50,247 nucleotides of DNA. Source: an uncultured Lachnospiraceae bacterium. Its GTDB lineage: Bacteria > Bacillota > Clostridia > Lachnospirales > Lachnospiraceae. The position numbers and the translations under genes were made by a program. Location: positions 1 through 50,247 of the forward strand of contig CACYWQ010000015.1 in assembly GCA_902778165.1 (NCBI GenBank), read 5' to 3'. Positions 32,476 through 49,017 of the stretch are shown here, piece by piece (positions within the stretch are counted from its first letter, which is position 1; each line of letters opens with the position of its first letter). The notes below the pieces were generated by a model that was given only the letters and a program-made list of their open reading frames with translations, had not been told where the DNA came from and ran no database searches.

Positions 32476-32498
32476 GTTTGTCATAGAATGAGGTGTAT

Positions 32499-33929
32499 AT
32501 GAGGCAATTGCTGGATAACAAATCATACCTTCGTAAGATGGCGGACAATCTGTTCGAATTCATAATCGTATTTGCGGATGACGGCGATGTAACTTTCTCC
32601 AATGAGGAAGCTTACAATGTTCTTATGTACAACAATATGGATGATGTCAAGATCACCGATATTTTTCCCACGCTGTTTACAATAGAGAACGGCAAATGTG
32701 TGTGCCGTGAAAATATGGACGGAAGAATGATCTCCGTCAATGCATACAGAAGCAATAATACGTGTTTTGAATCAGAGATAAGAATTCTTGCGGACACAGA
32801 GACTAATAACAGGTTCACGATTGTCGGAAGAGACATATCCGGAAGAGAGAGGATGCTTCGTGAACTCAAGCTTGCCAAGGATAACGGTCAGACACTGGAT
32901 AAGGTCAAGGATGAATTCGTGGCCAATGTTACCCATGAGCTTCGTACTCCCGTTAACGGAATCTTAGGTAACATCAGGGAATTGATGGGCAAGGAGCTCG
33001 ATTCGAATAAGCTCTACACCATGGAGATGATAGAGAAGAGCTGCTCAGATATGAATGCTCTTATTAATAACATTCTGGATTTCTCCAAACTTCAGGCAGG
33101 AAAATTTGAAATTGAGGAGAGGGAGTTCTCTCTTCACGCGATGATAGATTATGTCAGAAGCAACCACATGAATAAGATTCATGAGAAGGGGCTTGATTTC
33201 TTTGTGACTATTTCGCCGGATATTCCGGATAAACTTATCGGTGACGAACTGCGTATTGAGCAGGTGCTTAATAACCTCTTATCCAACGCCACCAAGTTTA
33301 CTACAGTCGGCAAGATTATGCTTGAGGTGGTAACAACCGCAAGAGCGGGAGATAAGATTGAGCTCTTCTTTATGGTTATGGATACCGGTATCGGTATCTC
33401 GGATAAAGACAGGGATAAGTTGTTTAAGGATTTCTCCCAGGTGGATGCATCGATATCAAGGAAGTACGGCGGAACGGGTCTCGGACTTAATATAAGCAAG
33501 AAGCTGGTCAACTTGATGGATGGTGATATCTCGGTTGACAGTATGCCGGGTAAAGGTTCTAATTTTAATTTCTCTTTATGGCTAAGAGTTCCCAAAGAAG
33601 GCGAGAACACATTTGTGGAGGACTTCAAAGTAGATACCGGAGCAATAGCCGACAGACAAATGGAGAGTATAGAGGCAGAACAGACATCCGCATACGGTTC
33701 GCAGGAGAACAGAGAAGAGATTGAGAAGCGAATTATGAAACTTACTCTGTGCGTGGAGATGGATACATGGGAGAAAGCGGAGATGTTTGCCGAGGCTGTT
33801 AAGCAGCTTACGATAGGTGCTCCCAAAGATGTAACGACGGCAGCCTTAAGACTTAAAATGGCAGTTCAGAAAGAGAATAAGGAGAAGACTATAGAAGCAA
33901 TGGAAGCGTTTAAACTTCTGTTGGGGTAA
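32499..33929 (+). CDS. Soluble PAS-domain sensor histidine kinase
   Basis: 476 residues from ATG 32499. No membrane helix. Residues about 10-115 form a PAS-like sensor (FEFIIVFADDGDVTFSNEEA). HisKA with phosphoacceptor His146 in FVANVTHELRTPVNGILGNI. The ATP-binding domain has LNNLLSNATKFTT (N box), DTGIGISDKD (G1) and GGTGLGLNISKKL (G2). No receiver domain. The last 70 residues (TWEKAEMFAEAVKQL ... LRLKMAVQKENKEKTIEAME) are a helical tail not part of the kinase core. First gene of a six-gene signalling run; the next gene encodes a receiver 17 bases on, the probable partner. Confidence 0.92.
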   Translation: MRQLLDNKSYLRKMADNLFEFIIVFADDGDVTFSNEEAYNVLMYNNMDDVKITDIFPTLFTIENGKCVCRENMDGRMISVNAYRSNNTCFESEIRILADTETNNRFTIVGRDISGRERMLRELKLAKDNGQTLDKVKDEFVANVTHELRTPVNGILGNIRELMGKELDSNKLYTMEMIEKSCSDMNALINNILDFSKLQAGKFEIEEREFSLHAMIDYVRSNHMNKIHEKGLDFFVTISPDIPDKLIGDELRIEQVLNNLLSNATKFTTVGKIMLEVVTTARAGDKIELFFMVMDTGIGISDKDRDKLFKDFSQVDASISRKYGGTGLGLNISKKLVNLMDGDISVDSMPGKGSNFNFSLWLRVPKEGENTFVEDFKVDTGAIADRQMESIEAEQTSAYGSQENREEIEKRIMKLTLCVEMDTWEKAEMFAEAVKQLTIGAPKDVTTAALRLKMAVQKENKEKTIEAMEAFKLLLG

Positions 33930-33946: not shown

Positions 33947-35023
33947 ATGGCAGAGAGCAGTGCTAACGCCGGATATAAGGGGCAGGTTCTTATAATTGAC
34001 GATGTGGAAGTCAATCGATTCGTGCTGCGTAATATCATATCGGAGATGGGATACCAGCCCATATTGGCCGAGAACGGAGTACAGGGACTTAAGATTCTGC
34101 AGAAGTGCAATCCGGAACTTATATTATTGGACATCTCAATGCCTGAGATGGGTGGATACGAATTCGCCAATATAGTCAAATCCAATGTGGATACAAGAGA
34201 GATTCCGATCGTGTTTATCTCGGCATATGATGAGGTTGATGATATAGTCAGAGGCTTTGAGATAGGCGGAGAGGATTATATCACCAAACCGTTTATCCCG
34301 GAGGTGGTTAAGGCCAGAGCCGGTGTTCATCTTAAGTTCCATGAGACCAAACGGGATCTGATGGACACCAACAGAAGACTTCAGACAATGGTTAATACAC
34401 AGCTTCGTCAGATAGAAGAAGAGAAGAAGGGCGTCTTATATGCCCTTGCCAATCTGGCAAGACGTAATTCGATGTATGAGGATGCGTTCATAGAGAGGCT
34501 TAGATATAACTGTCGACTTATTGCACAGGCTATGCAACTGGCCGGTATATATGAAGATGTTGTAACGGACACATTCATCAACACCATCGAGATTGCGGCT
34601 CCGCTATGTGATATAGGTAATGTTGCCGTACCTAAGGAGATATTACAGAAGAAGGATGTTCTTACTCCGAGTGAGAGGGAGAGAATGCAGACCCATACTA
34701 CGGTGGGTGCCAGAATACTTAATGATGTGGCTCTTTCAAGTGAGTATACAGATTTCGTTCAGATGGCAGCGGATATAGCCAATTACCATCATGAGAACTG
34801 GGACGGCAGCGGATATCCGGCGGGCAAGAAAGGGGATGACATTCCGTTATCGGCACAGATTGTTGCGGTTGGCAATGTGTACTGTGCCTTGACCGCTGAC
34901 AGAGTATACAGAGTGTCATACACCAAGGAGGAAGCGCTTAGGATAATCGGCGCGGATGCGGGAGAGAAATTCAATCCGCAGATATACAACGTTTATCGCA
35001 AGATATCTAAGCAGTTGAAATAG
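33947..35023 (+). CDS. Response regulator with degenerate HD-GYP domain
   Basis: 358 residues with AAGGAGGA upstream. The receiver has Asp62 in LILLDISMPEMGGYE and Lys in YITKPF. A coiled linker (residues 135-160) leads to an HD-GYP-like domain. That domain keeps HHENWDGSGYPAG and the His of QTHTTVGARIL, but the HD pair reads CD (LCDIGNVAVP, Cys221), the first metal His is not seen (RLRYNCRLIA), and the late Asp is Asn (VAVGNVYCAL). Several metal ligands needed for c-di-GMP hydrolysis are therefore missing. It may bind c-di-GMP or a partner instead of cleaving it. It lies 17 bases after the kinase. Confidence 0.9.
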   Translation: MAESSANAGYKGQVLIIDDVEVNRFVLRNIISEMGYQPILAENGVQGLKILQKCNPELILLDISMPEMGGYEFANIVKSNVDTREIPIVFISAYDEVDDIVRGFEIGGEDYITKPFIPEVVKARAGVHLKFHETKRDLMDTNRRLQTMVNTQLRQIEEEKKGVLYALANLARRNSMYEDAFIERLRYNCRLIAQAMQLAGIYEDVVTDTFINTIEIAAPLCDIGNVAVPKEILQKKDVLTPSERERMQTHTTVGARILNDVALSSEYTDFVQMAADIANYHHENWDGSGYPAGKKGDDIPLSAQIVAVGNVYCALTADRVYRVSYTKEEALRIIGADAGEKFNPQIYNVYRKISKQLK

Positions 35024-35072: not shown

Positions 35073-35468
35073 ATGAGGATTCTATTGGCTGAGGATGATT
35101 TTGTAACAAGGAAATTCATGATGAACTTCCTGTCAAAGTACGGCGACTGTGACGTGACGGTTGACGGTATGGAGGCAGTTGATGCATTCATGATGGCTAT
35201 GGAGGAAGATGATCCTTATGATCTTGTATGCCTGGATATAATGATGCCCGTCATGGACGGATATCAGGCGCTTATCGGCATACGTAACATCGAGAAGGAG
35301 AAGGGCATACCTCAGGAGAAGGCGGTTAAGGTAATCATGGCCACAGCCCTTAATGAAGAGAAGAATGTCAAGATGGCGTTTGATCTGGGTTGTACTATTT
35401 ATTCCGGCAAGCCCATCAATCAGGACAGATTTGAACAGGCACTTAAGAAACTCGGCCTGATTGAATAG
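35073..35468 (+). CDS. Single-domain CheY-like response regulator
   Basis: 131 residues with GGAGGAG upstream. The only domain is a receiver: acidic pocket AEDDF near the start, phospho-acceptor Asp55 in VCLDIMMPVMDGY, Thr in VIMATALN and Lys in YSGKPIN. It lacks an output domain, like CheY, so it could act by binding a protein (flagellar switch, kinase) or pass phosphate on to an Hpt domain. It lies between the HD-GYP regulator and the CheA-like kinase. Confidence 0.92.
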   Translation: MRILLAEDDFVTRKFMMNFLSKYGDCDVTVDGMEAVDAFMMAMEEDDPYDLVCLDIMMPVMDGYQALIGIRNIEKEKGIPQEKAVKVIMATALNEEKNVKMAFDLGCTIYSGKPINQDRFEQALKKLGLIE

Positions 35469-35500: not shown

Positions 35501-35515
35501 TATGAGGTGACACTA

Positions 35516-37258
35516 ATGTCATTAGAGTTAAACAGAGATGATATGTTGGACACATATGTGCTTGAGACCACCCAGATATTGGATGACTTGCAGGCACTAG
35601 TGCTCAAATGCAAAGATGAATCCGGATTCTCGGAGGATGCAGTTGCCGTGATATTCAGGTATATGCATACTCTAAAGGGATCTGCAGGATTCATGATGTT
35701 TGAACAGCTCAACCTGCTCACACACAAGACGGAAGATATATTTTATTACATAAGAGAGCATAAACCGGCCAAGATCGATCAGGCATATCTGGTTGAGCTT
35801 GTGCTTAAAGTGTCTGATTTTATCCAGGGAGAATTGGATAGATTATCAGACGGTAAGATGGCTGATTCGGATGCCACTGCCCTAATAGAGGAGCAGGATG
35901 CTTTCTTAAGAAAAATTATGAGTGACAATTCCGACAAGACTGAGGATGATGCAGATCCGAAACAGTCCGGAACTTCGGGCGATGCATCCGGAGATTCACT
36001 TAATGCCTCTTCCGGTATAGGTGGAGATACACGTATATATATCGCACCCAAGGATACTAAGGCCAATCATTATTTCCAGATATATATCGTGTATAACAAA
36101 GATACCAAGATGGCCAATGTGCATGCATATAAGGTAGTGCATCTGTTAAGAGGAGTAGCTGATGATATCAAGTATACTCCCGAGAATATCCTTACATCCG
36201 AAGCCAGTGGCGCGGAGATTTTGGAGAAAGGCTTTAAAATACTTCTTCGTACAAGCGGTTCTAAGAGTAAACTTACCAAACTGGTATCCGAGGGCTATGA
36301 GACAGAGACTATTGAGATAACCGAGATAGATGCAGCCAGATTTGAGGCGGGATTTAAACTCTTCGGAGTGGATGCGCCGGTGGCTGCCAAGATAACCAAG
36401 AAAGATGAAGATTTTGCCCCCGGAGATTTCGTTGTACACAGCGGCGCGCCGGGCAAGGGTAAATTCTTAGCCAAAGACAGAGAAGCCAAGAAAGATAAGG
36501 GCACACATATCAATGTTGAGGCTTCGGATATGGATCGACTCGCCGATCTTATAATTAAGTTGATCAAGGCCCAGAGCAAACTTATCGAGGATAAAGAGGT
36601 AAGAGAAGCAGGCCTTGAACTTGCGGCCTTTGACAGAAATGCCGATAAGATTAAGGTCATCACATCCGAGATACAGAACCTTGTAACTACGATGAGAATG
36701 GTGTCATTTACGAATATTTTCCTTCGTATGAACAGAGTGATATTCGAAGCATCAAGAAAACTTGGCAAGGATATAGAATGCGTTATTATCGGTGATGATG
36801 TCAAGGCAGACCGCGGCATCATAGAACATATATCGGATCCGCTTATGCATATGGTTCGTAACTGTGCAGATCACGGAATAGAAGAGGCCAATGAGAGAAT
36901 GCTTAAGGGCAAGCCGATGAAAGGCAGAATCACCCTTAAGGCGGAGATAGAAGATGATGAACTGCTTGTTTCGGTAAGTGATGACGGAGCCGGACTTAAC
37001 AGGGATAAGATTCTTAAGAAGGCTCATGAGAAGAATCTGATTCCGGGTGATAAGTCGGATTCGGAATACACCGATGATGAAGTTTGGAAGTTCATTACGC
37101 TTCCGGGATTCTCAACCAATGCCGAAGTGACTGAGTTCTCCGGCAGAGGTGTCGGAATGGATGTTGTGGTAAGCGCCGTAGAGACCATAGGCGGCAGCTT
37201 AAGCATTGAGAGCAAGAAGGATCAGGGCAGCACTATGACCATGAAGTTTAAGCTCTGA
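35516..37258 (+). CDS. CheA-like histidine kinase lacking the CheW-type domain
   Basis: 580 residues from ATG 35516 (GAGGTG upstream). The N-terminal Hpt has His51 in RYMHTLKGSAGFMMFEQL. Residues about 175-270 are a CheA P2-like or ferredoxin-like module (FQIYIVYNKDTKMANVHAYK). The dimerisation helices carry TTMRMVSFTNIFLRMNR (CheA has RMVPI..). The ATPase domain has MVRNCADHGIE, DDGAGLN and FSGRGVGMDVV. The chain stops right after the ATPase domain (STMTMKFKL), so the P5 domain that docks CheA to CheW and receptors is absent. It is therefore unlikely to be the chemotaxis kinase of classic arrays. Confidence 0.9.
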   Translation: MSLELNRDDMLDTYVLETTQILDDLQALVLKCKDESGFSEDAVAVIFRYMHTLKGSAGFMMFEQLNLLTHKTEDIFYYIREHKPAKIDQAYLVELVLKVSDFIQGELDRLSDGKMADSDATALIEEQDAFLRKIMSDNSDKTEDDADPKQSGTSGDASGDSLNASSGIGGDTRIYIAPKDTKANHYFQIYIVYNKDTKMANVHAYKVVHLLRGVADDIKYTPENILTSEASGAEILEKGFKILLRTSGSKSKLTKLVSEGYETETIEITEIDAARFEAGFKLFGVDAPVAAKITKKDEDFAPGDFVVHSGAPGKGKFLAKDREAKKDKGTHINVEASDMDRLADLIIKLIKAQSKLIEDKEVREAGLELAAFDRNADKIKVITSEIQNLVTTMRMVSFTNIFLRMNRVIFEASRKLGKDIECVIIGDDVKADRGIIEHISDPLMHMVRNCADHGIEEANERMLKGKPMKGRITLKAEIEDDELLVSVSDDGAGLNRDKILKKAHEKNLIPGDKSDSEYTDDEVWKFITLPGFSTNAEVTEFSGRGVGMDVVVSAVETIGGSLSIESKKDQGSTMTMKFKL

Positions 37259-37278: not shown

Positions 37279-39702
37279 ATGGATAACAGGGATTACGATC
37301 TTATCAGAAGAAGAAAGATAGAGAATATTGTCTTAGCCGTATATACACTGTATGCCGTGTGTGTAAGTCTGATGACGTATGACAGCACACAGAGATGGAT
37401 AATCATTGTCATTGAGGCGTTGCTTGTAGTGGTATGGATGAGTCATCTGACCGACTTTAGAGATTACAGATTCAGGGCCGGATTGTGTGCATTTGCATCT
37501 GAATTCTGTGTGTTCTTATATTGCATATTCGTTAACAATGACGTTGAGCCTTTGATATCCGTTATAGGTCTGACTATCATCATAGGCTTATACGAGTTGC
37601 CCAAACTTCTGATTTTTCCCTGTGTTACGTCCACACTGTTGTTGCTCCATCATATATTTATAAGCAAGACAGTTCCAATGAGTACAATGGATGAGGCCTT
37701 CAGAAGCATACTTGAGATAGCGGCTATATATATTACAATTCTTGTTGTGGATTTCCTGCTTAAGGAAGAGGCGGCCAGCAGAGTCAGACTTTTAGATTCA
37801 ATCGAAGAACTTAAGGCAGCTGAGAAGAGTAAAGATGACTTCATGGCCAATGTATCGCATGAACTTCGAACTCCTATCAATACTATCTGCGGCATGAGTG
37901 AGATAGCACTCGGTGAAGCTAAGTCTGAGATAGTAAGAGAGAATCTTGAGGATATCAAGAATGCAGGCAGGAATCTTCTGTCTGTTGTCAGCGATATACT
38001 GGACTATTCGGAACTAAACAGCGGTAAGTTTGCCCTTGATGAGGAGAATTATTCTTTGTCATCAACCATTAACGATGTGATCAATATGAGCATCGGCAAG
38101 ATCGGAAGCAAGAATATAGAATTGATCGTTAATTGCGATCCGACAATACCCGGAATATTAATCGGTGATGAGGCTAAGCTTAAGAGAGTGATGGTCAACT
38201 TAATTGAGAACGCCATTAAGTATACGGATGAAGGATATGTAATAGTTGATATAAGCAGAAGAAACGAAGAATACGGTATTAACCTCTGCGTTAAGATTAA
38301 AGATACCGGAATAGGTATGAAGCCGGAGAATCTTAACAAGATATTCTCTGATTTCACGCAGTTAAGCAGTGGAAGAGACCGCAAAGAAGGCGGCATAGGA
38401 CTTGGCCTTACGATTTCAAGGGCCATAGTGGAACTCATGGGTGGCTTCTTAACAATAGATTCTAAGTACGGAACCGGTACACAGATTCAGTTTACAGTAC
38501 CCCAGAAGGTAGAAGATGCCACGCCTATCGGCAATATCGACAGCAGACTCTCATCTGTGGGAATTGAGGCTGTGGATGATGAGAAGTACGGTGACAGTGC
38601 TGTAAGAGTAACCGGAAGAGTCAAGAGTGATAAGCCGGTCGGCCAGATGATTATGCCGAGGGCTCATGTGATGATAGTCGATGACAGCTTCATGAATCTT
38701 AAGGTTATAGAGGGTCTTCTTAAGCCCTACAGGATAAGAGTGACAACTGCATTAAGCGGAAGAGAGGCACTTGAGAAACTGGTAAGCAGAGATTATGATT
38801 TCATCTTCATGGATCATATGATGCCTGAGATGGACGGAGTGGAATGTCTTAATAAGATAAGATCAAGGGATATTCCGTATTATAAGAACGTCCCTGTTAT
38901 TGCACTTACGGCCAACGCGGTTGCAGGGGCCAAGGAGAAATTTATCGAGCTGGGATTCACGGATTTCATAGCCAAGCCTGTTGAGCTAAGCAGCCTTGAG
39001 AAAATGCTTAAGAAGTATATTCCCAAGGAGAAGATCAGTTATGCCGAAGAGATTGAGGAAGTTGCAAATAATGAGGTTGCAGCGGGCGATCTTGTGATAG
39101 GCGATCTCAATGTCAAGAAGGGATTGTTATATTGCGGTTCGGTAGAGAACTACAAGAATGTGCTTAACGTACATGCAACCAACGGTCCTGACAATATAGA
39201 CAAGATAAGAAGACTGTTTGAGGAGAAGAATATTACCGATTACACGATATATATCCATGCGCTTAAGAGCTCTATGGCAAGTATCGGAGCCGAGACGTTA
39301 TCCGAGATGGCCAAAGATATGGAACAGGCCGGTAAGGACGGTAATTTACCTTATATAGAAGCTCATCATGAGATGCTAATGGCAGAGTACGAGAGAATCA
39401 TAGCCATGTTGCTTGCTCAGAACTCTATGCAGATGGAGATAAGCGATATGTACATGGAAGCTGACAGCGTGCCTATTACTGATGAGAAGTTCGAAGAATA
39501 CATTGCTGCATTCGAAGAGGCGGCTTATACATTCATATCGGCCAATATGCTTCGCATAGTCGATGAACTGAGGGAATACAGCTTCAACGGTCATCCTCTT
39601 GCTCCTCAGCTTATAGCCATCAGGAGAAAAATAGAGATGTCTGACTATATGTCGGCTTTGGATGCGCTTAAGGGCCTGAGAGATCGTTATCGAAACAGAT
39701 AA
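37279..39702 (+). CDS. Membrane hybrid histidine kinase with REC and Hpt domains
   Basis: 807 residues. Five to six hydrophobic helices in residues 15-160 form a membrane sensor with no large external loop. HisKA has His194 in FMANVSHELRTPINTICGM; the ATPase domain has NLIENAIKYTDEG, DTGIGMKPEN and GIGLGLTISRAI. The receiver has Asp512 in FIFMDHMMPEMDG and Lys in FIAKPVEL. Hpt has His660 in IYIHALKSSMASIGAE. The last 75 residues are a helical tail resembling that of the first kinase in the cluster. The domain order HK-REC-Hpt is that of a complete internal phosphorelay whose Hpt can pass phosphate to a separate receiver such as the CheY-like protein. Confidence 0.93.
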   Translation: MDNRDYDLIRRRKIENIVLAVYTLYAVCVSLMTYDSTQRWIIIVIEALLVVVWMSHLTDFRDYRFRAGLCAFASEFCVFLYCIFVNNDVEPLISVIGLTIIIGLYELPKLLIFPCVTSTLLLLHHIFISKTVPMSTMDEAFRSILEIAAIYITILVVDFLLKEEAASRVRLLDSIEELKAAEKSKDDFMANVSHELRTPINTICGMSEIALGEAKSEIVRENLEDIKNAGRNLLSVVSDILDYSELNSGKFALDEENYSLSSTINDVINMSIGKIGSKNIELIVNCDPTIPGILIGDEAKLKRVMVNLIENAIKYTDEGYVIVDISRRNEEYGINLCVKIKDTGIGMKPENLNKIFSDFTQLSSGRDRKEGGIGLGLTISRAIVELMGGFLTIDSKYGTGTQIQFTVPQKVEDATPIGNIDSRLSSVGIEAVDDEKYGDSAVRVTGRVKSDKPVGQMIMPRAHVMIVDDSFMNLKVIEGLLKPYRIRVTTALSGREALEKLVSRDYDFIFMDHMMPEMDGVECLNKIRSRDIPYYKNVPVIALTANAVAGAKEKFIELGFTDFIAKPVELSSLEKMLKKYIPKEKISYAEEIEEVANNEVAAGDLVIGDLNVKKGLLYCGSVENYKNVLNVHATNGPDNIDKIRRLFEEKNITDYTIYIHALKSSMASIGAETLSEMAKDMEQAGKDGNLPYIEAHHEMLMAEYERIIAMLLAQNSMQMEISDMYMEADSVPITDEKFEEYIAAFEEAAYTFISANMLRIVDELREYSFNGHPLAPQLIAIRRKIEMSDYMSALDALKGLRDRYRNR

Positions 39703-39739: not shown

Positions 39740-42451
39740 ATGGTAGATAAGATTAGAAACTTCATGAGCAGCGACAACGGAAATATCAGAGAGAAACTCT
39801 TTGTGATCATCTGTATAGAATCCGTGGTAGCATCGATAATGTCGTTGATTGAGTGCCTGGCTGTCAGGGCAGGCTGGCCTATCTATGGCGCAATCACGAT
39901 ATTTATCGCAATAATTATATGGGCCGTAATAAGCATAGTCAACGGCGGCGACCAGGAAATGCCGATACTTGCCGTTACAATATGGATGTGTATGATAGTA
40001 TTCCCGCTTGTGTTCTTTACATGCGGCGGTGTACACAGCGGCTCCAACGGTTGGCTGGCACTCGGTATTATATACGTGTTTATGGTATATCGAGGCAGAC
40101 CGCTTAAGATTCTTGCAACTCTGATTATTTCTATAGATATAGCATGCTATGTGGCTGCATATAATTTCCCTTCTCTTGTAACTCCTCTTGCAAGTGAACT
40201 GTCGGTTTATATGGATTCGGCACTGGGAATGTTGGCTGTTGGAATAACGGCAGGATTTATATTCTCATTCAGAAGGAAAGGCTATGGACGAGAGAGCGCC
40301 ATGGCTATCAAACAGCGAAATGAACTTGACAGATTAAATGCTTCAAGGGAACGCTTCTATGCCAATTTCTCTCATGAGATACGTAATCCCATCAATTCTA
40401 TCGTAGGGCTTAACGAACTTAATATACGTCAGATACAGGATCCTGAGATAATGAAGAATTCTCAGGCTATCGGTCGTTCGGGCAGACTGTTATTAAGTAT
40501 TGTTAACGATATTATGGACTTGTCTCAGATTGCGGGAGACAGAATGGTGATTACTCCTGCGCCTTATGACGTCCAGTCAGCTATTGCATCCCTGATAGAA
40601 CTTATAGGCCAGAGGGCCAAGGATAAGGGGCTTGAACTTAAACTTGAAGTAGATCCCGCTCTTCCCAAGATATTGGTCGGTGATCAGAGACGAATCACTC
40701 AGGTACTTCTTAACCTGCTTACCAATGCCGTTAAGTATACGGACAAAGGTTATGTCAAGATGTCCATAGTAAGCAATAAAGAAGGAAATGATACTGTAAG
40801 ATTAAGAATAAGTGTATCCGACACCGGTATAGGTATTGAGAAGGAGAATCTTGCGCATTTATTTGATACATACAGCCAGTTTGACAGAGTTGCCAACAGC
40901 GGAATAGAGGGCAACGGATTGGGATTGCCCATAGCTTATGAATTCACGAGACTTATGGGCGGTGATATCAAGGTGGACAGTGTATACGGTGAGGGCTCAA
41001 CATTTACCGTAGAATTCAATCAGAAATACATAGGTAATGATCTTATAGAAGGCACCACATATGAACAGATATCGGAAACCGGAGCTAAGCAGAGTGAATA
41101 TGTACGCAGTTTCGAAGCAAGTAAAGCCAGGATATTGGTTGTAGATGATGATGCCCAGAACAGAAGCATAATAAAGGGCCTGCTTAAAGATACCAAGGTG
41201 GAAATTGCAGAGGCGGGCAGCGGTGAAGAGGCATTAAAGCTTACCGCGGAGAATGAGTACCACGTAATACTTGTGGATTATATGATGCCCGGCATGAGCG
41301 GTACGGAGCTGCTTGATGAGATAAGAGAACAATCCGGAGGCTTATGCAGAAAGAGCAGAATAATAGCTCTTACAGGTGCGATCCTTGACAGAAGGGAGCA
41401 TAACAAGGCGTTATATGAATTCGACCTTATCTTAACTAAGCCGGTTGAATATACCGTACTTGAGAATGCAATAGCGGATAATATTCCTGAGGAACTTATA
41501 GAATACAGGGTCGGACATTCTGAAGAAACGACCGGTATATCCATACCCATGGTTGCACCTAAACGTAAGCGAAGGATACGTATTACGACCGATTCGTCAT
41601 GCGATCTGCCAAGGAGTGTTCTTGATGAGCATGATATCGGACTTATGAATCTGTATATCAGAACCAAGAAAGGCAGATATAAAGATATAGAAGAAATAGA
41701 CAGTTTGGACCTTATGGGACAGTTAACGGAGAGCCGAAGCGACCTTATCCAAGACGGTGCAACCGTTAATGAATATCAGAGATTCTTCAGAAACGAGCTT
41801 GAGACTTCCGAAGAGATTATCCATCTCTCATTCAGTTCCAAGATCGGTAATTGTTATAACCATGCATCAGAAGCAGCGGAAGCGTTCTCGCATGTCAGAG
41901 TAATAGACAGTTGTCTTGTGTCGGCAGGATTGGGATTGCTTGCAATAATATCAACCGAATTTGTCGACAGAGGATTAAGTGCGGATGAGATATGTGCCAA
42001 TATCGATAAGATTAAGCAGCATATTGATTTCAGCTTTGTTCTGCCTTCGGCAGGTTTGGCGTCTAAGAACAAACTTATGAGTAAGAGACGTGCAAGGGTA
42101 TATGATTCGCTTAATATTCATCCGGCAGCACATATATCTCACGGAGCAATTAAGCAGATAAGAGCGTATAAGGGTGAAATGAAGCAGATTATCAAGCACC
42201 ATATCAAGATGACTATGCTTCTAAGCGGACGTATGGATAACAGAGTGCCCGTTATATTAACACATGCCGGACTTACACCCGGGGCACAGGATCAGATGTT
42301 GCGTGAGATGCGTGAGAATCTTCCTGAGAAGTCAATTATGTTAACCAGAGCCTCGGTTACAACGGCAAGTTATACGGGAATAGGTGCAGTCGGAGTAGCT
42401 TATCTTCATCATACTCCGTTACTTAATCCGAGTATTCCGATTAAGCCATAA
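39740..42451 (+). CDS. Membrane hybrid histidine kinase fused to a DegV domain
   Basis: 903 residues. Five to six helices (residues about 18-180), HisKA with His212 in FYANFSHEIRNPINSIVGLN, and an ATPase domain with NLLTNAVKYTDKG, DTGIGIEKEN and GNGLGLPIAYEF. The receiver has Asp513 in VILVDYMMPGMSG. Then, from about residue 611 to the end, a full-length DegV domain: IRITTDSSCDLPRSVL, IIHLSFSSKIGNCYNHA, VRVIDSCLVSAGLGLLAI, LTHAGLTPGAQDQML and TGIGAVGVAY. DegV/FakB proteins bind a fatty acid. Several usual ligand contacts are changed (DGATV for TSQPS, SKRRARV in place of the GGR loop, YTGIG for HTGPG). It probably senses a lipid or uses the DegV fold as an output; inference. Confidence 0.9.
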   Translation: MVDKIRNFMSSDNGNIREKLFVIICIESVVASIMSLIECLAVRAGWPIYGAITIFIAIIIWAVISIVNGGDQEMPILAVTIWMCMIVFPLVFFTCGGVHSGSNGWLALGIIYVFMVYRGRPLKILATLIISIDIACYVAAYNFPSLVTPLASELSVYMDSALGMLAVGITAGFIFSFRRKGYGRESAMAIKQRNELDRLNASRERFYANFSHEIRNPINSIVGLNELNIRQIQDPEIMKNSQAIGRSGRLLLSIVNDIMDLSQIAGDRMVITPAPYDVQSAIASLIELIGQRAKDKGLELKLEVDPALPKILVGDQRRITQVLLNLLTNAVKYTDKGYVKMSIVSNKEGNDTVRLRISVSDTGIGIEKENLAHLFDTYSQFDRVANSGIEGNGLGLPIAYEFTRLMGGDIKVDSVYGEGSTFTVEFNQKYIGNDLIEGTTYEQISETGAKQSEYVRSFEASKARILVVDDDAQNRSIIKGLLKDTKVEIAEAGSGEEALKLTAENEYHVILVDYMMPGMSGTELLDEIREQSGGLCRKSRIIALTGAILDRREHNKALYEFDLILTKPVEYTVLENAIADNIPEELIEYRVGHSEETTGISIPMVAPKRKRRIRITTDSSCDLPRSVLDEHDIGLMNLYIRTKKGRYKDIEEIDSLDLMGQLTESRSDLIQDGATVNEYQRFFRNELETSEEIIHLSFSSKIGNCYNHASEAAEAFSHVRVIDSCLVSAGLGLLAIISTEFVDRGLSADEICANIDKIKQHIDFSFVLPSAGLASKNKLMSKRRARVYDSLNIHPAAHISHGAIKQIRAYKGEMKQIIKHHIKMTMLLSGRMDNRVPVILTHAGLTPGAQDQMLREMRENLPEKSIMLTRASVTTASYTGIGAVGVAYLHHTPLLNPSIPIKP

Positions 42452-42494: not shown

Positions 42495-42521
42495 TAAAGA
42501 TTTGTGTGAATCATCCGATAA
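42495..42521 (+). promoter_or_regulatory. Sigma-28 (FliA/SigD) promoter of the flgM operon
   Basis: TAAA (42495-42498), 16-base spacer, CCGATAA (42515-42521), matching the motility sigma consensus TAAA-N15-GCCGATAA closely. A 9-bp inverted repeat AAATCTTTA (42467-42475)/TAAAGATTT (42495-42503) overlaps the -35; it may be the terminator of the kinase cluster or chance in AT-rich DNA. Confidence 0.8.
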
Positions 42522-42563: not shown

Positions 42564-42836
42564 ATGCGTATAGAAGCATATACTCAGGTACAGCAGCTCT
42601 ATAAGAGCAGTCAGCCTAAGCAGGTTAAGAAGGAGACTAAGTCAAGCTTCTCTGACCAGCTTCAGATATCAAGCGCAGGCAAAGATATTCAGGCAGCTAA
42701 ACAGGCAGTTGCAGGAGCTGACGACGTGCGTATGGATCTCGTTAATTCTATCAAGGAGAGAATTGACAACGGCACCTACAATGTAGATGCAGGCAGCTTC
42801 GCAGCTAAGTTATACGAGAGATATAACGCATTCTAA
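42564..42836 (+). CDS. flgM: Anti-sigma-28 factor FlgM
   Basis: 90 residues. The C-terminal half has the FlgM pattern: DDVRMDLVNSIKERIDNGTY, then NVDAGSFAAKLYER. The N-terminal half is Lys/Ser/Gln-rich and probably disordered, as usual. It binds sigma-28 in the cytoplasm until the hook-basal body is finished. The presence of a sigma-28 promoter just upstream gives the classic negative feedback. flgN follows after 11 bases. Confidence 0.9.
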   Translation: MRIEAYTQVQQLYKSSQPKQVKKETKSSFSDQLQISSAGKDIQAAKQAVAGADDVRMDLVNSIKERIDNGTYNVDAGSFAAKLYERYNAF

Positions 42837-42847
42837 GGAGGTTACCG

Positions 42848-43366
42848 GTGGCCAGTCTGATGGAAGCACTTATCGACAATCTTGAGAAAGAGAACGAAGC
42901 CTATAGCAGGCTCCTTAAGTTGTCCATGGATAAGACCCCGGTTATTATCAGCTCAGATCTGGACGCTCTGGCTAAGATCACGGATGATGAACAGTCAGTC
43001 GTTAATGAGATCAACGCTCTTGACCGTAAGCGTCAGGAGAATATGAATGACATAGCAAACGTTATTAACAAGGATGTTAATAGTTTGAAAGTGGTTGACC
43101 TTATCGATATGCTTAAGGGAAGACCAGGAGAACAGAATAGGTTGGCAGATGTATATGATAAGCTGCGTGACACGCTCTCACAGATGAAGAGAGTCAATGA
43201 ACAGAACAGACAGCTTATTGAGAGCTCACTTGAAATGGTGCAGTTTGACATGAATGTTCTGCAGGCCTACAGAGCCGCTCCCGAGACGGCCAATTATACG
43301 TCCGGTGCATACAGTGCAGGAACATATATGGGTGTGGATAAGGGGGCGTTCGACGCGAAACAATGA
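42848..43366 (+). CDS. flgN: Flagellar export chaperone FlgN, GTG start
   Basis: 172 residues from GTG 42848, fixed by AAGGAGGT at 42835-42842. An almost entirely helical protein with heptad-like repeats (LIDNLEKENEAYSRLLKLSM; LDALAKITDDEQSVVNEIN). Size, helix content and position between flgM and flgK fit FlgN, the chaperone that brings FlgK and FlgL to the export gate. The C-terminal 30 residues are Gly/Ala/Tyr-rich and flexible. Confidence 0.88.
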   Translation: MASLMEALIDNLEKENEAYSRLLKLSMDKTPVIISSDLDALAKITDDEQSVVNEINALDRKRQENMNDIANVINKDVNSLKVVDLIDMLKGRPGEQNRLADVYDKLRDTLSQMKRVNEQNRQLIESSLEMVQFDMNVLQAYRAAPETANYTSGAYSAGTYMGVDKGAFDAKQ

Positions 43367-43395
43367 CATCCGGCAGTTAATAGCGAGGTAAGCGT

Positions 43396-45162
43396 ATGCC
43401 ATTAATGGGAAGCCTTTACATAGGCGTGTCAGGTCTCCAGACCAGCCAGAATGCACTCAATACAACTGCACATAATATATCTAACACCGACACCAAGGGT
43501 TATGTACGTCAGCAGATACTCCAGAGTACTGCGGCATATAACACCATCAAGACAGATTACCACGCTGTATCTAATCAGCAGATAGGATTAGGTGTCGTTT
43601 ATTCCAAGACAAGACAGGTACGTGACGTTTTCTTAGACGCCACTTATAGACGTGAGTCCGGCAGAAGCTCATTCTACGAGGTATCGGCAGATGCACTCGG
43701 TGAGATTGAGAATCTGTTAGATGAGATGAACGGTGAGACTTTCCAGGAGTCTATTCAGGATCTGTGGACATCTGTTCAGGAGATGGCCAAGGATCCCAGC
43801 AGTGCCGTTACTCAGGGACTCTTCATAGAGAGATGCTCGGAGTTCTTAGCAAGAAGCCAGTCGGTATATCAGGGCTTATGTGATTATCAGTTAAGCTTAA
43901 ATGAGACAGTTAAGAAGAATACCAATCGCATCAATGATATAGCCGAACAGATTAAGGTTCTTAATGATGAGATCAGAATGATAGAGATCTCCAACACGAA
44001 AGAATTCGGTATATCCTTTGAGAGAGCCAATGACTTAAGAGATACACGTAATGCTCTAATAGACGAACTCTCAACCTACGGTAATATCTCTTATGAAGAA
44101 GATGTTGACTGTACGGTATGGATTCAGTTTGAGGGAGAGGATTTAGTCAGACGTGAAGTTGCTTATTCTCTCGGATTATATGAAGATCCCAAGACAGGTT
44201 TCTATACTCCTTTCTGGGAGAAGAACGCCAAGGCAACTATAGATCCTCAGACAGGTGAGAGAAGATATTCGGCTGAAGAAGTAGAGAAAGCCAAGGTATA
44301 TGACCTTAACAGAGTTATTTCTTCGGATCTTAATACGGATATCGGTGCACTTAAGTCGGCACTTCTTGCAAGAGGAGATCACAAGTCGGATTATACCGAT
44401 CTTATGGAAGACAGATATGATTACGAAATATCTCAGTCGGTATGTATGAACGTAATGGCTGAGTTTGATCAACTGGTACACGGTATAGCAACATCGGTCA
44501 ACGATGTAATAGCCAAAGCCGCATACGAAGCCAAACAGATTAATCCGTCAAGTACATATCTTATGGACACCGATGGTAATCCCATACAGGTATTTAAGAA
44601 GATTGCATCTGACGGTTACAGTGCTACGACAACACCTCCGACTTGGAATGCTCTAACGGGGCAGGCAAGTAACTTTAACCCGGAATTAGTCGGCACATAT
44701 GATCCCATAACGGGCGAAGTAACAGGATATCAGGTTGAGTCATTATATACGACAACCAATATGCAGATAAATGTGGATCTGTTAAGACAGCCGACCAAGC
44801 TTGGATTTGTCAAGATAGACGGCCAGGTAGATTTCGTCACGATGGAGAGCCTTAAGTCGGCGTTTGAAGCAGAAGAGATGACACTTAATCCCAATGTTAA
44901 GAAGAAATCTTCCTTCGTTGACTATTACGGAGATCTGGTAAGCCAGGTAGCCAATTCGGGTTCGGTATACAAGAGTATCATCGACAGTCAGGAGAAGACG
45001 GTAATGGCTACATCCAATGCAAGGGAGCAGGTTATCGGAGTATCTCAGGATGAAGAGATGACATTCATGATTAAGTTCCAGAATGCATACAATGCATCTT
45101 CAAGATATATAAATGTAGTAGACGATATGCTTGAGCATATAATCAACACCTTAGCGGTATAA
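43396..45162 (+). CDS. flgK: Flagellar hook-associated protein FlgK (first copy)
   Basis: 588 residues. The N-terminal D0/D1 helix has SLYIGVSGLQTSQNALNTTA and NISNTDTKGYVRQQ, the rod/hook family signature. The C-terminal D0 helix ends KFQNAYNASSRYINVVDDML. The middle is a variable domain with a Tyr/Thr-rich loop. It forms the first hook-filament junction ring. It is the more usual length of the two copies (E. coli FlgK is about 547). Confidence 0.92.
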   Translation: MPLMGSLYIGVSGLQTSQNALNTTAHNISNTDTKGYVRQQILQSTAAYNTIKTDYHAVSNQQIGLGVVYSKTRQVRDVFLDATYRRESGRSSFYEVSADALGEIENLLDEMNGETFQESIQDLWTSVQEMAKDPSSAVTQGLFIERCSEFLARSQSVYQGLCDYQLSLNETVKKNTNRINDIAEQIKVLNDEIRMIEISNTKEFGISFERANDLRDTRNALIDELSTYGNISYEEDVDCTVWIQFEGEDLVRREVAYSLGLYEDPKTGFYTPFWEKNAKATIDPQTGERRYSAEEVEKAKVYDLNRVISSDLNTDIGALKSALLARGDHKSDYTDLMEDRYDYEISQSVCMNVMAEFDQLVHGIATSVNDVIAKAAYEAKQINPSSTYLMDTDGNPIQVFKKIASDGYSATTTPPTWNALTGQASNFNPELVGTYDPITGEVTGYQVESLYTTTNMQINVDLLRQPTKLGFVKIDGQVDFVTMESLKSAFEAEEMTLNPNVKKKSSFVDYYGDLVSQVANSGSVYKSIIDSQEKTVMATSNAREQVIGVSQDEEMTFMIKFQNAYNASSRYINVVDDMLEHIINTLAV

Positions 45163-45174
45163 CAGGAGGGACTT

Positions 45175-47262
45175 ATGCCTTCACAGTTTTTTGGATTAAA
45201 TACAGCATATACCGGTCTGTTAAATGCCAATGCAGGACTTAACACGACCGCCAATAACATATCGAATGCCGAGACAGAAGGTTACAGCCGTCAGGGAATT
45301 CATTCCGAGGCTGCCGAAGCACTCAGGGTATTTACGACTTACGGATGTGCGGGGGCAGGTGTTGAGACTCTCTCTATAGAGCGTATCCATGATGAATTCT
45401 ATGATAATAAGTATTGGGCAAATAATAATAAGACCGGCCAGTACGAGATGAAGGATTACTATATGAAGCAGATAGAGGATTACTTCAGAGATGATTCCAC
45501 TATCGAAGGCTTCACAACCACCTTCAACAAGATGATGACAGCTCTGGCAGAGGTTAAGAAGAACCCGGCCAATATATCTACCAAGGCACAGTTTGTGGGA
45601 TTTGCGGACAATCTCTGTGAGTACTTTAACTCAATGTCTTCCTCTATGGAACAGGTTCAGAAGGATGTTAACTCAGAGATTAAGCTTAAGGTGGATGAGA
45701 TTAATTCAATAGCAAGCGAACTTGCTACCATCAATAAACAGATCAATGTTATAGAGATCGGCGGCGGTACAGCCAATGAACTCAGAGATAAGAGAACATT
45801 ACTTGTCGATCAGTTATCTTCTATAGTAAGTCTTGAAGCCAAGGAATATCCCATAGTGGATACCAACGATCCCGATCGTAAGACCGGTGGCAACATGTAT
45901 ATAGTTAAGATAGCCGGCGGACAGACACTGGTGGATACCGATCAGTACAATACTCTTGAATGTGTGGCACGTACCACTTCAGAGAAGGTTAATCAGTCGG
46001 ATATAGACGGTTTGTATGATGTGTATTGGATATCAACAGCCAACCATCAGATATATGAGAAGATCTGTAAGGAAGGTCTTAAGGATGATCCTGATTTCAA
46101 ACTGGAATGGAACGATTTCGTTAAGTTCGGATATACAACGGACAAGGCCAAATACGATCCCTGTTCAGAGTTTAATCTCTATAATGCAAGTTTAGGCGGA
46201 CAGCTTGAAGGCCTTATTCAGATGAGAGACGGTAATAACTCCGAGAATTTCACCGGTAAGATTGCCAAGATTGATTCTGCTACATCCAATAATGCTGCCG
46301 GTCAGACAATAAGGCAGATTAGAATTGAAGTCGATAAGGATTATCTTAAGGATATCAATAAACTTACATTATCCGATACGGGCGGAGTAATAACCTTAGC
46401 CAATCAGAAGTTCTACTATGATGATTGGAAGTTCGAATATGATGCAACGAATAATAAGTATTACTATACGATGAGCATCAATGAGAGCAAGAGCAGAGCA
46501 GTCGTTCCTGGACAGTTCACCGGTAAGGAAGCGGATGTGGGAATGCCGATCAAGTATCAGGGCGTTCCGTATTATCAGCAGCAGCTTAATGAATGGTGCA
46601 GAATATTTGCAGCAGCCTTTAATGACATTCTCTTAGACGGATATACATCTGAAGGTGACGGCGGTGTAGAGATGTTCGTAGCCAATAAGGCATCAGAAGA
46701 CAGTCAGTATCTGTTCAGAGAGGCTAAATACGGTAAGTACATCAAGGATGAGAACGGCAATCCCATTACTACAGATGCTAACGGTAACCCAACCAATGTT
46801 TCGACTGACGGAAGTTATACCGTAGAGATGAGACAGGACAGTTACTATTGGATGACAGCCAAGAATATGGACATCCTTAAGGCAATCGTCGATGATCCCG
46901 GCAAGATGGCAACCAAGTCAGATAAGGCAGCAGGAAGCGATGAATATAATATCGCCGGCAGATTAATAGATATGACCATGAATAAGAATGTAGCCAACTA
47001 CAGAGGCGCAGCTACGCAGGAATTCTTAACATGTGTATTATCGGATGTTGCACTTAATGCCAAGAACGCAACAACGTTCTACAACAACTACAATAATATA
47101 GGCAAGAACATCGACAATCAGCGAATATCCATTTCGGGCGTTGATAATGATGACGAAGCAGTGAATTTGATCAAGTATCAGAATGCATATACATTAGCAT
47201 CCAAGATGATACAGACACTTACGGAAGTATATGACAGATTGATCCTTCAGACAGGCGTTTAA
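45175..47262 (+). CDS. Flagellar hook-associated protein FlgK (second, longer copy)
   Basis: 695 residues with AGGAGGG upstream. N-terminal GLNTAYTGLLNANAGLNTTA and NISNAETEGYSRQG, C-terminal LIKYQNAYTLASKMIQTLTE, so both D0/D1 ends of FlgK are intact. The middle domain is about 100 residues longer than that of the first copy and contains a calcium-loop-like DENGNPITTDANGNPTN. The two copies differ strongly outside the ends. The second may form an alternative or additional junction ring; which copy is HAP1 proper is not decidable here. Confidence 0.88.
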   Translation: MPSQFFGLNTAYTGLLNANAGLNTTANNISNAETEGYSRQGIHSEAAEALRVFTTYGCAGAGVETLSIERIHDEFYDNKYWANNNKTGQYEMKDYYMKQIEDYFRDDSTIEGFTTTFNKMMTALAEVKKNPANISTKAQFVGFADNLCEYFNSMSSSMEQVQKDVNSEIKLKVDEINSIASELATINKQINVIEIGGGTANELRDKRTLLVDQLSSIVSLEAKEYPIVDTNDPDRKTGGNMYIVKIAGGQTLVDTDQYNTLECVARTTSEKVNQSDIDGLYDVYWISTANHQIYEKICKEGLKDDPDFKLEWNDFVKFGYTTDKAKYDPCSEFNLYNASLGGQLEGLIQMRDGNNSENFTGKIAKIDSATSNNAAGQTIRQIRIEVDKDYLKDINKLTLSDTGGVITLANQKFYYDDWKFEYDATNNKYYYTMSINESKSRAVVPGQFTGKEADVGMPIKYQGVPYYQQQLNEWCRIFAAAFNDILLDGYTSEGDGGVEMFVANKASEDSQYLFREAKYGKYIKDENGNPITTDANGNPTNVSTDGSYTVEMRQDSYYWMTAKNMDILKAIVDDPGKMATKSDKAAGSDEYNIAGRLIDMTMNKNVANYRGAATQEFLTCVLSDVALNAKNATTFYNNYNNIGKNIDNQRISISGVDNDDEAVNLIKYQNAYTLASKMIQTLTEVYDRLILQTGV

Positions 47263-47277
47263 TAGTGAGGTACAATA

Positions 47278-49017
47278 ATGAGAGTTACCACTAAGGTTAT
47301 ACAGGGCAATTCAATAGCCAATATCAATACCAACAAGGTATTGCAGGATAAACTTAACAATCAGATGGCTACAGAGAAGAAGATCGTTCGCCCCTCGGAT
47401 GATCCGGTTGTTGCCATAAGATCATTAAGACTTCGTACAAATGTCAGCCAGGTCACACAGTATTATGAGAAGAATGTGGCTGATGCCGAGAGCTGGATGA
47501 AGGTTACTGAAGATTCACTGACTACGGTATCAAGCGTTATCACGGATATGATCGAGCAGTGCACCAAGGGTTCTTCCGAGAAACTTACTGCGACTGACCG
47601 CGACACTATCTTAGATGCGCTCAAGGCTCTTCGCGATGAAGTCTATGCCACAGGTAATGCCGACTATGCAGGCAGATCTGTATTTACCGGATACAGAACA
47701 GAGACAACCGTTAAATTCACGGCTGCCGAGACAAGACCTTATCAAATCACAGAGCAGATCAACAATAATGTGTTAGATACGGTGAAGTATGTTAATTCCG
47801 GTTACTTAAACGGTATCAATGATGCCAATTACAGTTCAGGGCAGTTCGTAGATCCAGCTACGGGCTTAAATAAAAACTATGTTAATGCGGTGGAACAGGA
47901 TATCAAGGAGCAGGAAATATACCGTATCAGACTTGCATATGACAATGTAGACAAAGATACTGCGCCTACGATCAAGTTATATGATCCTTCGATAATAACT
48001 AGCAACCCAAATGCCAGTGTTGCAGATCAATATACTGCTACAGTTCTTAATGTTACTCCCAGTATTGTATCGGAAACAGCTGCAAAGAATCCATATCAGA
48101 TGATGGCTGACTTTGATGCATCTGTTCAGGCAGTTTTGGATGCAGGCGGTAAGGTAAATGAAAACGGCTCTCTTGAGGATCAGGGTGGCAATCCCGTAAC
48201 TAACCCTGCAAGTGCTTATAGTGCTATTTTGATTCCTGAGACCGGAGAATTGCTCATAAGTAAGTCTCTGTATGAGAGGATGATGAAGCTTAAGGATGAT
48301 GTGACTACACCTACTAAGGATGAGTCACAAATCCAGATTACATATAATAAGTCCACATGGAAGAAGGATGATCTTAAGCCTGAGCATTACTTCGCTTGCA
48401 CCGATATGTCAGATTCTGATCCTAACAATCATATCAAGTACAATACCGATTACTTAAGCGGAATAGTTGAGAAGCAGGCTATAGAGTATGATGTCGGACT
48501 TAATCAGTCTATTCGTATCAATACTACTGCTGATGAAGTCTTCACGCATGCAATCGGAAGAGACGTTGATGATCTGGTTAATTCAATGCAGGCAGTTATA
48601 GATATGGATGCAACTGTTGAGCGTCTTAAGAAGATAAGAGAAGGACTTAAACAGGATGCTTCTTATCAGACTAATTATGATATTCTTACCAACCAGATAG
48701 ATGCGGCAGAGAAGTCTCTTACATATCTTAAGGAGAAGAACCAGAAGTTATTCGAAGGAAGCATCACCAAGATGCAGAACCATCTTAATAAGGTCAATGA
48801 AGCTACTACCAACTGCGGTACAAGAGAGAAGAAACTTGATCTTATCAAGAACAGACTTATGAGTCAGAAGACCAATTTCGAAACTCTTGAGTCAGAGAAT
48901 GAGAATGTTGAGATCACTGATGTGGCACTTCAACTTAAGGGAGCTGAACTGACATATCAGGCAGCCTTAATGAGTACCAGTAAGATACTGCAGACATCGC
49001 TTATGCAGTACATCTAA
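47278..49017 (+). CDS. flgL: Flagellar hook-associated protein FlgL, enlarged
   Basis: 579 residues, nearly twice the roughly 300-320 of FlgL in Bacillus or E. coli. The N-terminal flagellin-like helix has NKVLQDKLNNQMATEKKIVR and SDDPVVAIRSLRLRTNVSQV. The C-terminal helix has VEITDVALQLKGAELTYQAA. Residues about 130-400 are an inserted variable domain, presumably surface-exposed. It forms the junction between FlgK and the filament. Located last in the flgM-N-K-K-L run; 133 bases separate it from fliW. Confidence 0.9.
   Translation: MRVTTKVIQGNSIANINTNKVLQDKLNNQMATEKKIVRPSDDPVVAIRSLRLRTNVSQVTQYYEKNVADAESWMKVTEDSLTTVSSVITDMIEQCTKGSSEKLTATDRDTILDALKALRDEVYATGNADYAGRSVFTGYRTETTVKFTAAETRPYQITEQINNNVLDTVKYVNSGYLNGINDANYSSGQFVDPATGLNKNYVNAVEQDIKEQEIYRIRLAYDNVDKDTAPTIKLYDPSIITSNPNASVADQYTATVLNVTPSIVSETAAKNPYQMMADFDASVQAVLDAGGKVNENGSLEDQGGNPVTNPASAYSAILIPETGELLISKSLYERMMKLKDDVTTPTKDESQIQITYNKSTWKKDDLKPEHYFACTDMSDSDPNNHIKYNTDYLSGIVEKQAIEYDVGLNQSIRINTTADEVFTHAIGRDVDDLVNSMQAVIDMDATVERLKKIREGLKQDASYQTNYDILTNQIDAAEKSLTYLKEKNQKLFEGSITKMQNHLNKVNEATTNCGTREKKLDLIKNRLMSQKTNFETLESENENVEITDVALQLKGAELTYQAALMSTSKILQTSLMQYI

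Follow-up and report, generated by a model that had tools for sequence, protein, structure and literature searches.

Statements credited below to an article in PubMed Central (PMC) refer to an excerpt of that article. FakB1 of Staphylococcus aureus is a protein of the DegV family (PF02645) whose Arg205, reported to be completely conserved in FakBs, serves FakA binding (PMC8892158) and whose Arg173 is required for Fak catalysis (PMC9136124). In the same species fatty acid metabolism is tied to a histidine kinase (HK), since SaeS is inhibited by free fatty acids; several possible mechanisms are listed, the route is left open, and fatty acid kinase does not phosphorylate SaeS (PMC5539427). LadS of Pseudomonas aeruginosa, an HK with a receiver (REC) and no histidine phosphotransfer (Hpt) domain, passes its phosphate via the Hpt of GacS, an HK-REC-Hpt protein, and this route has been demonstrated (PMC4866733). 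In Rhodospirillum centenum the hybrid kinases CheA3 and CheS3 lie in a che-like cluster, and the excerpt names no DegV domain in their cascade (PMC3868531). Here we analyze a stretch of 50,247 nucleotides (the window) from an uncultured Lachnospiraceae bacterium (GCA_902778165.1, contig CACYWQ010000015.1), in which one gene encodes an HK-REC-DegV protein directly behind the gene of an HK-REC-Hpt protein. We propose that the two form a two-kinase phosphorelay in which a FakB-like domain has been repurposed for regulation, a reading to which we give a probability of roughly 0.5.

The locus resembles each of these systems in part. Its DegV domain shares the whole fold of FakB together with Pfam and NCBIfam membership, but it is tethered to a kinase and a receiver, it belongs to a separate clade, and Arg205, Arg173 and His270 have mostly been lost. 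The gene pair divides its parts as LadS and GacS do; here, however, the two genes are adjacent and often overlapping, the Hpt is found on the DegV kinase in some lineages, a DegV domain is present and the phosphate route is one that we propose rather than one that has been demonstrated. Where the SaeS case involves free fatty acids and a separate kinase, in this protein the FakB fold lies within the kinase itself. The cluster in the window, which has a CheA-like gene beside its hybrid kinases, shares with R. centenum the presence of hybrid kinases in a che-like setting; that organism belongs to another phylum. An earlier note on this DNA, made from its letters alone, knew of no described system of the HK-REC-DegV type. 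That statement stands among the matches listed in the open PMC literature, which contain no histidine kinase-DegV fusion; subscription papers and most preprints lie outside that search.

The HK-REC-DegV protein and its relatives

The reading frame runs through 903 residues without an internal stop, and its parts are placed as follows.

39740-42451, + strand: HK-REC-DegV gene, 903 residues (open reading frame listing; Pfam)
39740-40309, + strand: N-terminal membrane segment, about residues 1-190, with several hydrophobic stretches and no match to a Pfam family
40346-40531, + strand: HisKA, residues 203-264, with the phospho-acceptor His212 at 40373-40375 (Pfam; residue alignment)
40679-41020, + strand: HATPase_c, residues 314-427 (Pfam)
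41132-41473, + strand: receiver (Response_reg), residues 465-578, with the phospho-acceptor Asp513 at 41276-41278 (Pfam; residue alignment)
41474-41575, + strand: linker between REC and DegV (low model confidence)
41576-42406, + strand: DegV (FakB-fold) domain, residues 613-889 (Pfam; AlphaFold2 model; Foldseek)

The earlier note had read a membrane sensor, HisKA, ATPase, receiver and DegV in a single frame, with His212 and Asp513 as the phospho-acceptors. The open reading frame listing and Pfam bear out this architecture, and both positions were confirmed. His212, Asp513, the receiver Lys and what we take to be the N, G1 and G2 boxes are all intact, and by these motifs the protein classes as a hybrid histidine kinase. 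Across 99 related proteins of more than 800 residues the phospho-His, the N, G1 and G2 boxes, the receiver Asp residues and the Lys are invariant, with a single change of Thr to Ser. Conservation, taken as the mean frequency of the commonest residue, is lowest in the membrane segment (0.33) and reaches 0.61 in DegV and 0.70 in REC.

The DegV assignment is firm at the level of profile and fold. PF02645 matches with an E-value of 5.1e-36 and 124.9 bits (cut-off 27) over profile positions 2-278 of 280, and the NCBIfam model TIGR00762 is passed with 131.8 against a cut-off of 99.7. The domain had been described as complete to the end of the protein; the match is indeed full-length, but it stops at residue 889 and 14 residues remain. 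AlphaFold2 gave the domain alone, with 34 relatives in the alignment, a predicted local distance difference test score (pLDDT) of 90.2 and a predicted template modelling score (pTM) of 0.89. Foldseek matched this model along its length, at template modelling (TM) scores of 0.86 to FakB1 (5uto) and 0.87 to the DegV protein of Thermus thermophilus (2dt8), so the comparison with FakB that the earlier note had proposed found the two-domain DegV fold. When REC and DegV were modelled as one unit (55 relatives) the pLDDT was 88.5 and the pTM 0.66, with model residues 131-147, within the linker, below a pLDDT of 50. The natural reading of two firm domains and a weak linker is that the DegV domain would hang on a flexible leash behind the receiver. 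A fixed docking of DegV on REC is not supported by this pTM or by a linker of such low confidence.

The architecture recurs far beyond this gene. Nine DegV matches occur in the window genome (2.35 Mb), and three of them lie within long frames: the window gene, an HK-REC-DegV protein of 890 residues (L010) and an HK-REC-DegV-Hpt protein of 1148 residues (L009). The other six are free-standing DegV genes, one of which (L004) lies about 3.4 kb from the Dak2 (FakA-type) gene of the genome. When 299 genomes of the family were searched by profile, 60 had a DegV match at E <= 1e-62, and 46 of these have it in a frame of at least 700 residues. Domain checks of those 46 gave HK, REC and DegV in this order in 44, including one genome (G215) where the start of the kinase is missing; in the exceptions DegV is N-terminal (G274) or accompanies a kinase without a HisKA or receiver match (G138). 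The search across the family that had been suggested therefore finds the order in 44 of 299 genomes, and HK-REC-DegV proteins are common in commensal gut and rumen bacteria. Among the matches listed for 391 genomes of the class, frames of at least 700 residues come from this family and one other (f58, three genomes), whose domains have as their closest named kin records of Ruminococcaceae, Clostridiales and other Clostridia at about 67-86% identity. Across the phylum (398 genomes, E <= 1e-72) such frames are confined to this family. With one genome for each of 84,980 species, at least 545 stretches encode a relative, and the best 80 of these carry Clostridia titles, many of them from the rumen; these 80 loci and the survey genomes may overlap as records.

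An assembly chimera, or a missed stop between REC and DegV, would be the simplest artefact, and we regard it as extremely improbable. Nothing speaks for it, and it is ruled out by the conserved order in 44 of the 46 long-frame genomes, by the two extra copies in the same genome and by a spacing of 29-43 residues between the REC and DegV matches in 101 genes. The missed stop, which the earlier note had itself raised, is in practice excluded by the same architecture in so many genomes.

The partner kinase and the single Hpt

The gene directly ahead of the fused gene encodes a second hybrid kinase.

37279-39702, + strand: partner HK-REC-Hpt gene, 807 residues, with Hpt at residues 635-705 (39181-39393), ending 37 bases ahead of the HK-REC-DegV gene

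To see how general this pairing is we used 103 sources, namely the window, L009, L010 and 20 plus 80 further loci. They gave 103 genes with REC and DegV from 101 sources (L150 and L196 gave none), and 101 of these genes include the HK. The gene just upstream of these 101 encodes a complete HK-REC-Hpt protein in 85 cases, an end-cut HK-REC-Hpt in five and the cut REC-Hpt end of one in three. In the remaining eight the neighbour lies on the opposite strand (three), the fused protein's own kinase has been split off (L137 and L139), or the upstream gene encodes HK-REC (L009), Hpt and REC (L163) or REC (L179). Four extra loci fetched as a check had HK-REC-Hpt directly upstream in all four. The two genes are separated by a median of -4 bases in 90 pairs, 54 of which overlap. 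Pairwise distances of the DegV domain and of the partner kinase correlate with r 0.94 in 87 pairs (no shuffle out of 1000 went above 0.20), though much of this is shared descent.

The position of the Hpt follows a simple rule. Where the DegV protein has no Hpt the partner carries one, in 93 of 93 cases (87 of 87, the loci L248 and L250, and the four check loci). In a longer form of the DegV protein, extended by about 250 residues, the Hpt is C-terminal on the DegV protein itself and the upstream HK-REC protein ends soon after its receiver, without an Hpt, in 12 of 12. Seven loci fall outside these two sets: in L236 and L244 the protein has a C-terminal Hpt but no gene is visible ahead of it, the partner of L246 is divided between an HK gene and a REC-Hpt gene, L251 has its HK-REC-Hpt gene two positions upstream, L247 is cut, and L249 and L252 lack a partner. 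By gene content the layout is of the LadS/GacS type, in that only one of the two neighbouring hybrid kinases has an Hpt. On the DegV tree the C-terminal Hpt needs two changes, with L234 apart from the main group (90/90, not starred). If this placement holds, two separate moves of the Hpt that ended alike would speak for a single shared relay.

The mechanism that we propose follows this division of parts. The HK-REC-DegV protein would be an active hybrid kinase of the membrane, with transfer from His212 to Asp513 but no Hpt of its own, and it would share the Hpt of the hybrid kinase encoded just upstream. Phosphate would pass from H1 to D1 (the receiver) within the DegV kinase, then to the partner Hpt and on to output receivers, for which the stand-alone REC and the REC-HD-GYP protein of the same cluster are candidates (HD-GYP is a label that we presume; Pfam gives HD_5). 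Because the pair divides its parts as LadS and GacS do, this route is the most economical one. The tethered DegV domain would act as a cytosolic sensor, most likely of an acyl-type ligand, that favors or hinders phosphotransfer and so tunes kinase, phosphatase or transfer rates to the ligand, having given up service to the fatty acid kinase FakA.

In the partner kinases at L009 4216-6264 and L010 2244-4859 about 150 residues without a Pfam match lie between HATPase and receiver, perhaps a degenerate receiver.

FakB residues and the role of the DegV domain

Positions of FakB1 were taken from PMC8892158 and PMC9136124 and mapped to alignment columns through the motifs of the free-standing L004. 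We compared 49 of 123 fused rows, picked because as a whole they resemble the window domain or its alignment, with 72 free-standing rows, part of which are the best Pfam scorers and so tilted toward canonical sequences while another part is nearest to the fused type. The 80 best-match loci were left out of these counts since they had been found by a peptide pattern that fixes Asn at the His270 position, and L052, L150, L193, L137, L139, L101 and L105 were left out of the alignment.

In FakB the carboxylate of the fatty acid is bound by a network of Ser95 and His270 together with Thr62 and Ser171. At Ser95, Arg173, Arg205 and His270 the window domain has Gly, Leu, Lys and Tyr, the last being Tyr878. 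Ser95 is kept in 16 of 49 fused domains against 70 of 72 free-standing ones, Arg173 in 17 against 70, Arg205 in 6 against 66 and His270 in none against 67. Taken together, the fused domains keep none of the four in 22 cases, one in 15, two in 12 and never more, whereas all four are present in 64 of the 72. Thr62 is Thr or Ser in 30 of 49 fused and in all 72 free domains, and Gln in the window, where the alignment is unsure; the column of Ser171 is Gly in 65 of 72 free DegVs and hence uninformative. The window domain thus departs from FakB at Arg205, at Arg173 and at the Ser95/His270 pair, as judged from its sequence. Given the loss of most FakA-docking and catalytic Arg residues, the fused DegV is unlikely to be a substrate carrier for FakA. 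A functional FakB simply joined to a kinase was rejected as a membership claim on these counts. A further candidate, DegV as a stand-in for Hpt in phosphotransfer, an idea taken from the title of a paper on the EDD domain cited in PMC9136124, was also not supported: none of the 49 fused domains retains His270, and a true Hpt is found in each of the scored pairs.

These losses are not decay. The His270 position is Asn in 42 of 49 fused domains, other positions are near-constant in the fused set only (Gly645, for example, in 48 of 49), and the ratio of nonsynonymous to synonymous substitution rates (dN/dS) of the domain is 0.03-0.08 in three pairs with dS below 1. One pair at a dS of 1.76 gave 0.165. 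The Nei-Gojobori method was used, and silent sites are saturated in most pairs. By these ratios the DegV domain is under purifying selection, and its fold-core residues are retained.

A first tree, of 121 DegV domains, groups all 49 fused ones with three free-standing ones in one clade (100 in the SH-like approximate likelihood ratio test, SH-aLRT). A second tree of 65 domains supports the signalling clade at 100/100, apart from 15 of the 18 free-standing DegVs, and needs one change between the signalling type and free DegV when the three free-standing members are scored as signalling-type. The trees point to a single origin of the fused DegV domains. Two of these free-standing members (L031 and L068) stand at the base of the clade, each directly 3' of an HK-REC-Hpt gene and ahead of a receiver gene, and the third, in L050, overlaps the end of an HK-REC gene as a split form. 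Other members are rearranged. In L247 (5431-8304) DegV is N-terminal and is followed by a membrane-like stretch, HK and REC before the gene runs off the contig; in L249 (7290-9878) and L252 (7451-10063) DegV sits behind a kinase that matches HATPase but neither HisKA nor a receiver and is by its motifs likely a pseudokinase, with no HK-REC-Hpt neighbor in the two genes upstream. All three lie within the signalling clade and fit a modular regulatory DegV domain. Outside the signalling set, a DegV in a frame of 580 residues at L105 (G366:C44:64831-65655) has about 300 residues ahead of it.

What the domain does could be explained in other ways. DegV might be output rather than input: phosphorylation of the receiver would drive uptake or release of fatty acid by the tethered FakB-like domain, with the kinase steering lipid to FakA and PlsX. 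DegV does occupy the place of an output domain behind REC, and the genome has the Dak2 gene and the six free-standing DegV genes, one of them near Dak2. The low retention of Arg205 (6 of 49) and Arg173 (17 of 49), the members in which DegV is N-terminal or beside a kinase without a HisKA match, and a model without confident docking of DegV on REC all count against this, and we consider it quite improbable. Somewhat better placed, but still unlikely, is a scaffold free of ligand, a dimerization or docking module that joins two kinases or a receiver. It would account for the carboxylate residues being mostly gone, for hydrophobic residues at 809 and 811 where free DegVs have Lys and Arg, for the co-evolution of DegV with the partner kinase and for the separate DegV protein in the same operon at some loci, but the kept fold core and the near-fixed Asn in place of His270 would exceed what a scaffold needs. 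A third possibility, which we hold to be doubtful but the least so of these, keeps the sensing role and changes the ligand: through a re-cut pocket DegV would sense a candidate other than a plain fatty acid, such as an acyl conjugate, a lysolipid or a polar molecule. The Asn at His270 and the varied residues at Ser95 suggest changed recognition of the head group in a preserved fold.

Our preferred reading remains the two-kinase relay with DegV as its regulatory domain. An acyl ligand is attractive within it because free fatty acids inhibit SaeS, although the lost carboxylate residues leave the chemistry uncertain. A fuller version is only tentative: that Clostridia of gut and rumen took up the FakB fold a single time to sense acyl lipids for a two-kinase relay, with its one Hpt on either kinase, and that the state of free fatty acids or membrane lipids in the cell sets motility and cyclic di-GMP (c-di-GMP) output. 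Several observations weigh against these proposals. L249 and L252 keep DegV without a HisKA or receiver match, a state compatible with DegV as a regulator but not with a strict relay. The three opposite-strand neighbors among the 101 upstream genes have neither HK nor REC, 11 of the 99 proteins have no single neighboring partner and went unscored, and L247, unscored too since it runs off its contig, sits behind an HK-REC gene without Hpt. The changes at His270 and Ser95 make an acyl ligand doubtful, though Thr62 is still Thr or Ser in 30 of 49. On the output side, flagellar genes lie 3' of all 8 orthologous loci in the window's genus and of none of 12 elsewhere, within the DNA in view. In favor of a link with motility, flgK occurs in 39 of the 46 genomes that have long DegV frames and in 111 of the 253 that lack them (odds ratio 7.1, p 2.5e-7), an association uncorrected for kinship or for the bigger signalling repertoire of motile cells.

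If this fuller version is true it would give a first DegV-domain receptor and a new class of histidine kinase input. A kinase with a built-in FakB fold would make the question of fatty acid sensing testable on one purified protein, and the single-Hpt rule, which has survived rearrangements that look independent, offers a natural experiment in the division of a phosphorelay between hybrid kinases. A kinase with a carrier-shaped tail beside a second signalling gene suggests an unrecognized link of an internal, perhaps fatty, signal to behavior.

The earlier note was right that the ligand contacts are altered, but the altered set also includes the residues for FakA docking and catalysis, and these counts make presentation of fatty acids to FakA, its suggestion for DegV domains, unlikely here. 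Its suggestion that phosphorylation and lipid binding control one another is a conjecture. It described a real and conserved fusion with changed FakB residues; it overlooked the HK-REC-Hpt partner and the one-Hpt-per-pair rule, along with the two further copies in the genome, the che, HD-GYP and flagellar surroundings and the unfused and rearranged forms.

Surrounding genes and candidate outputs

The kinase pair closes a cluster of HK, REC-HD-GYP, REC, CheA-like and HK-REC-Hpt genes, and late flagellar genes follow it.

32493-33929, + strand: first gene of the signalling cluster, a histidine kinase whose PAS match is below threshold
33947-35023, + strand: REC and HD domain (Pfam HD_5), predicted c-di-GMP phosphodiesterase, candidate output (Pfam)
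35073-35468, + strand: stand-alone receiver, candidate phospho-acceptor (Pfam)
35507-37258, + strand: CheA-like gene, 583 residues, with Hpt, P2 and HATPase (Pfam)
42495-42521, + strand: TAAA-N16-CCGATAA, a sigma-D-like promoter preceding flgM (the window has one match where 0.13 is expected; only suggestive)
42564-49017, + strand: late flagellar genes directly 3', namely flgM, a gene in the flgN place, two FlgK-like genes and flgL

The promoter was compared with what we take to be the flagellar sigma-D consensus, and the gene in the flgM group is presumably flgN, though it has no NCBIfam match. The two FlgK-like genes stand in tandem ahead of flgL (43396-47262). Flagellar regulation as a general role of the fused genes was rejected, as the association seen in the window's own genus is missing from the other loci. 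By gene association the output is likely motility, surface behavior or c-di-GMP.

A homolog of the CheA-like gene is present in 14 of 20 locus contexts. The protein in the window has no match to a CheW-like domain, and the six-gene cluster has no CheW gene and no gene for a methyl-accepting chemotaxis protein (MCP), both of which relatives of the cluster have. Judged by these domains the window cluster does not qualify as a classical chemotaxis CheA system, and its CheA-like protein seems to have departed from the chemoreceptor array. The homolog in L077 (717 residues, with CheW- and MCP-type neighbors) has a CheW-like domain. Within five genes of the fused gene, across 101 loci, a CheW-type gene is found in 9 and an MCP-type gene in 10, named from representatives.

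Other neighbors vary among loci. Open reading frame calls place a PilT-type gene near the fused gene in 12 of the 101 loci (L132, L135, L142, L144, L147, L148, L162, L164, L167, L174, L175 and L178; one of the 12 was tested against NCBIfam), directly 3' in 11; PilT-type proteins are type IV pilus retraction ATPases. In L010 a GGDEF/HD receiver protein precedes the pair. At L009:1024-4182, two genes before the HK-REC-DegV-Hpt paralogue, a protein of 1052 residues joins 4Fe-4S and iron-only-hydrogenase domains to HK-REC-Hpt and, from this domain content, is possibly a redox or hydrogen sensor kinase.

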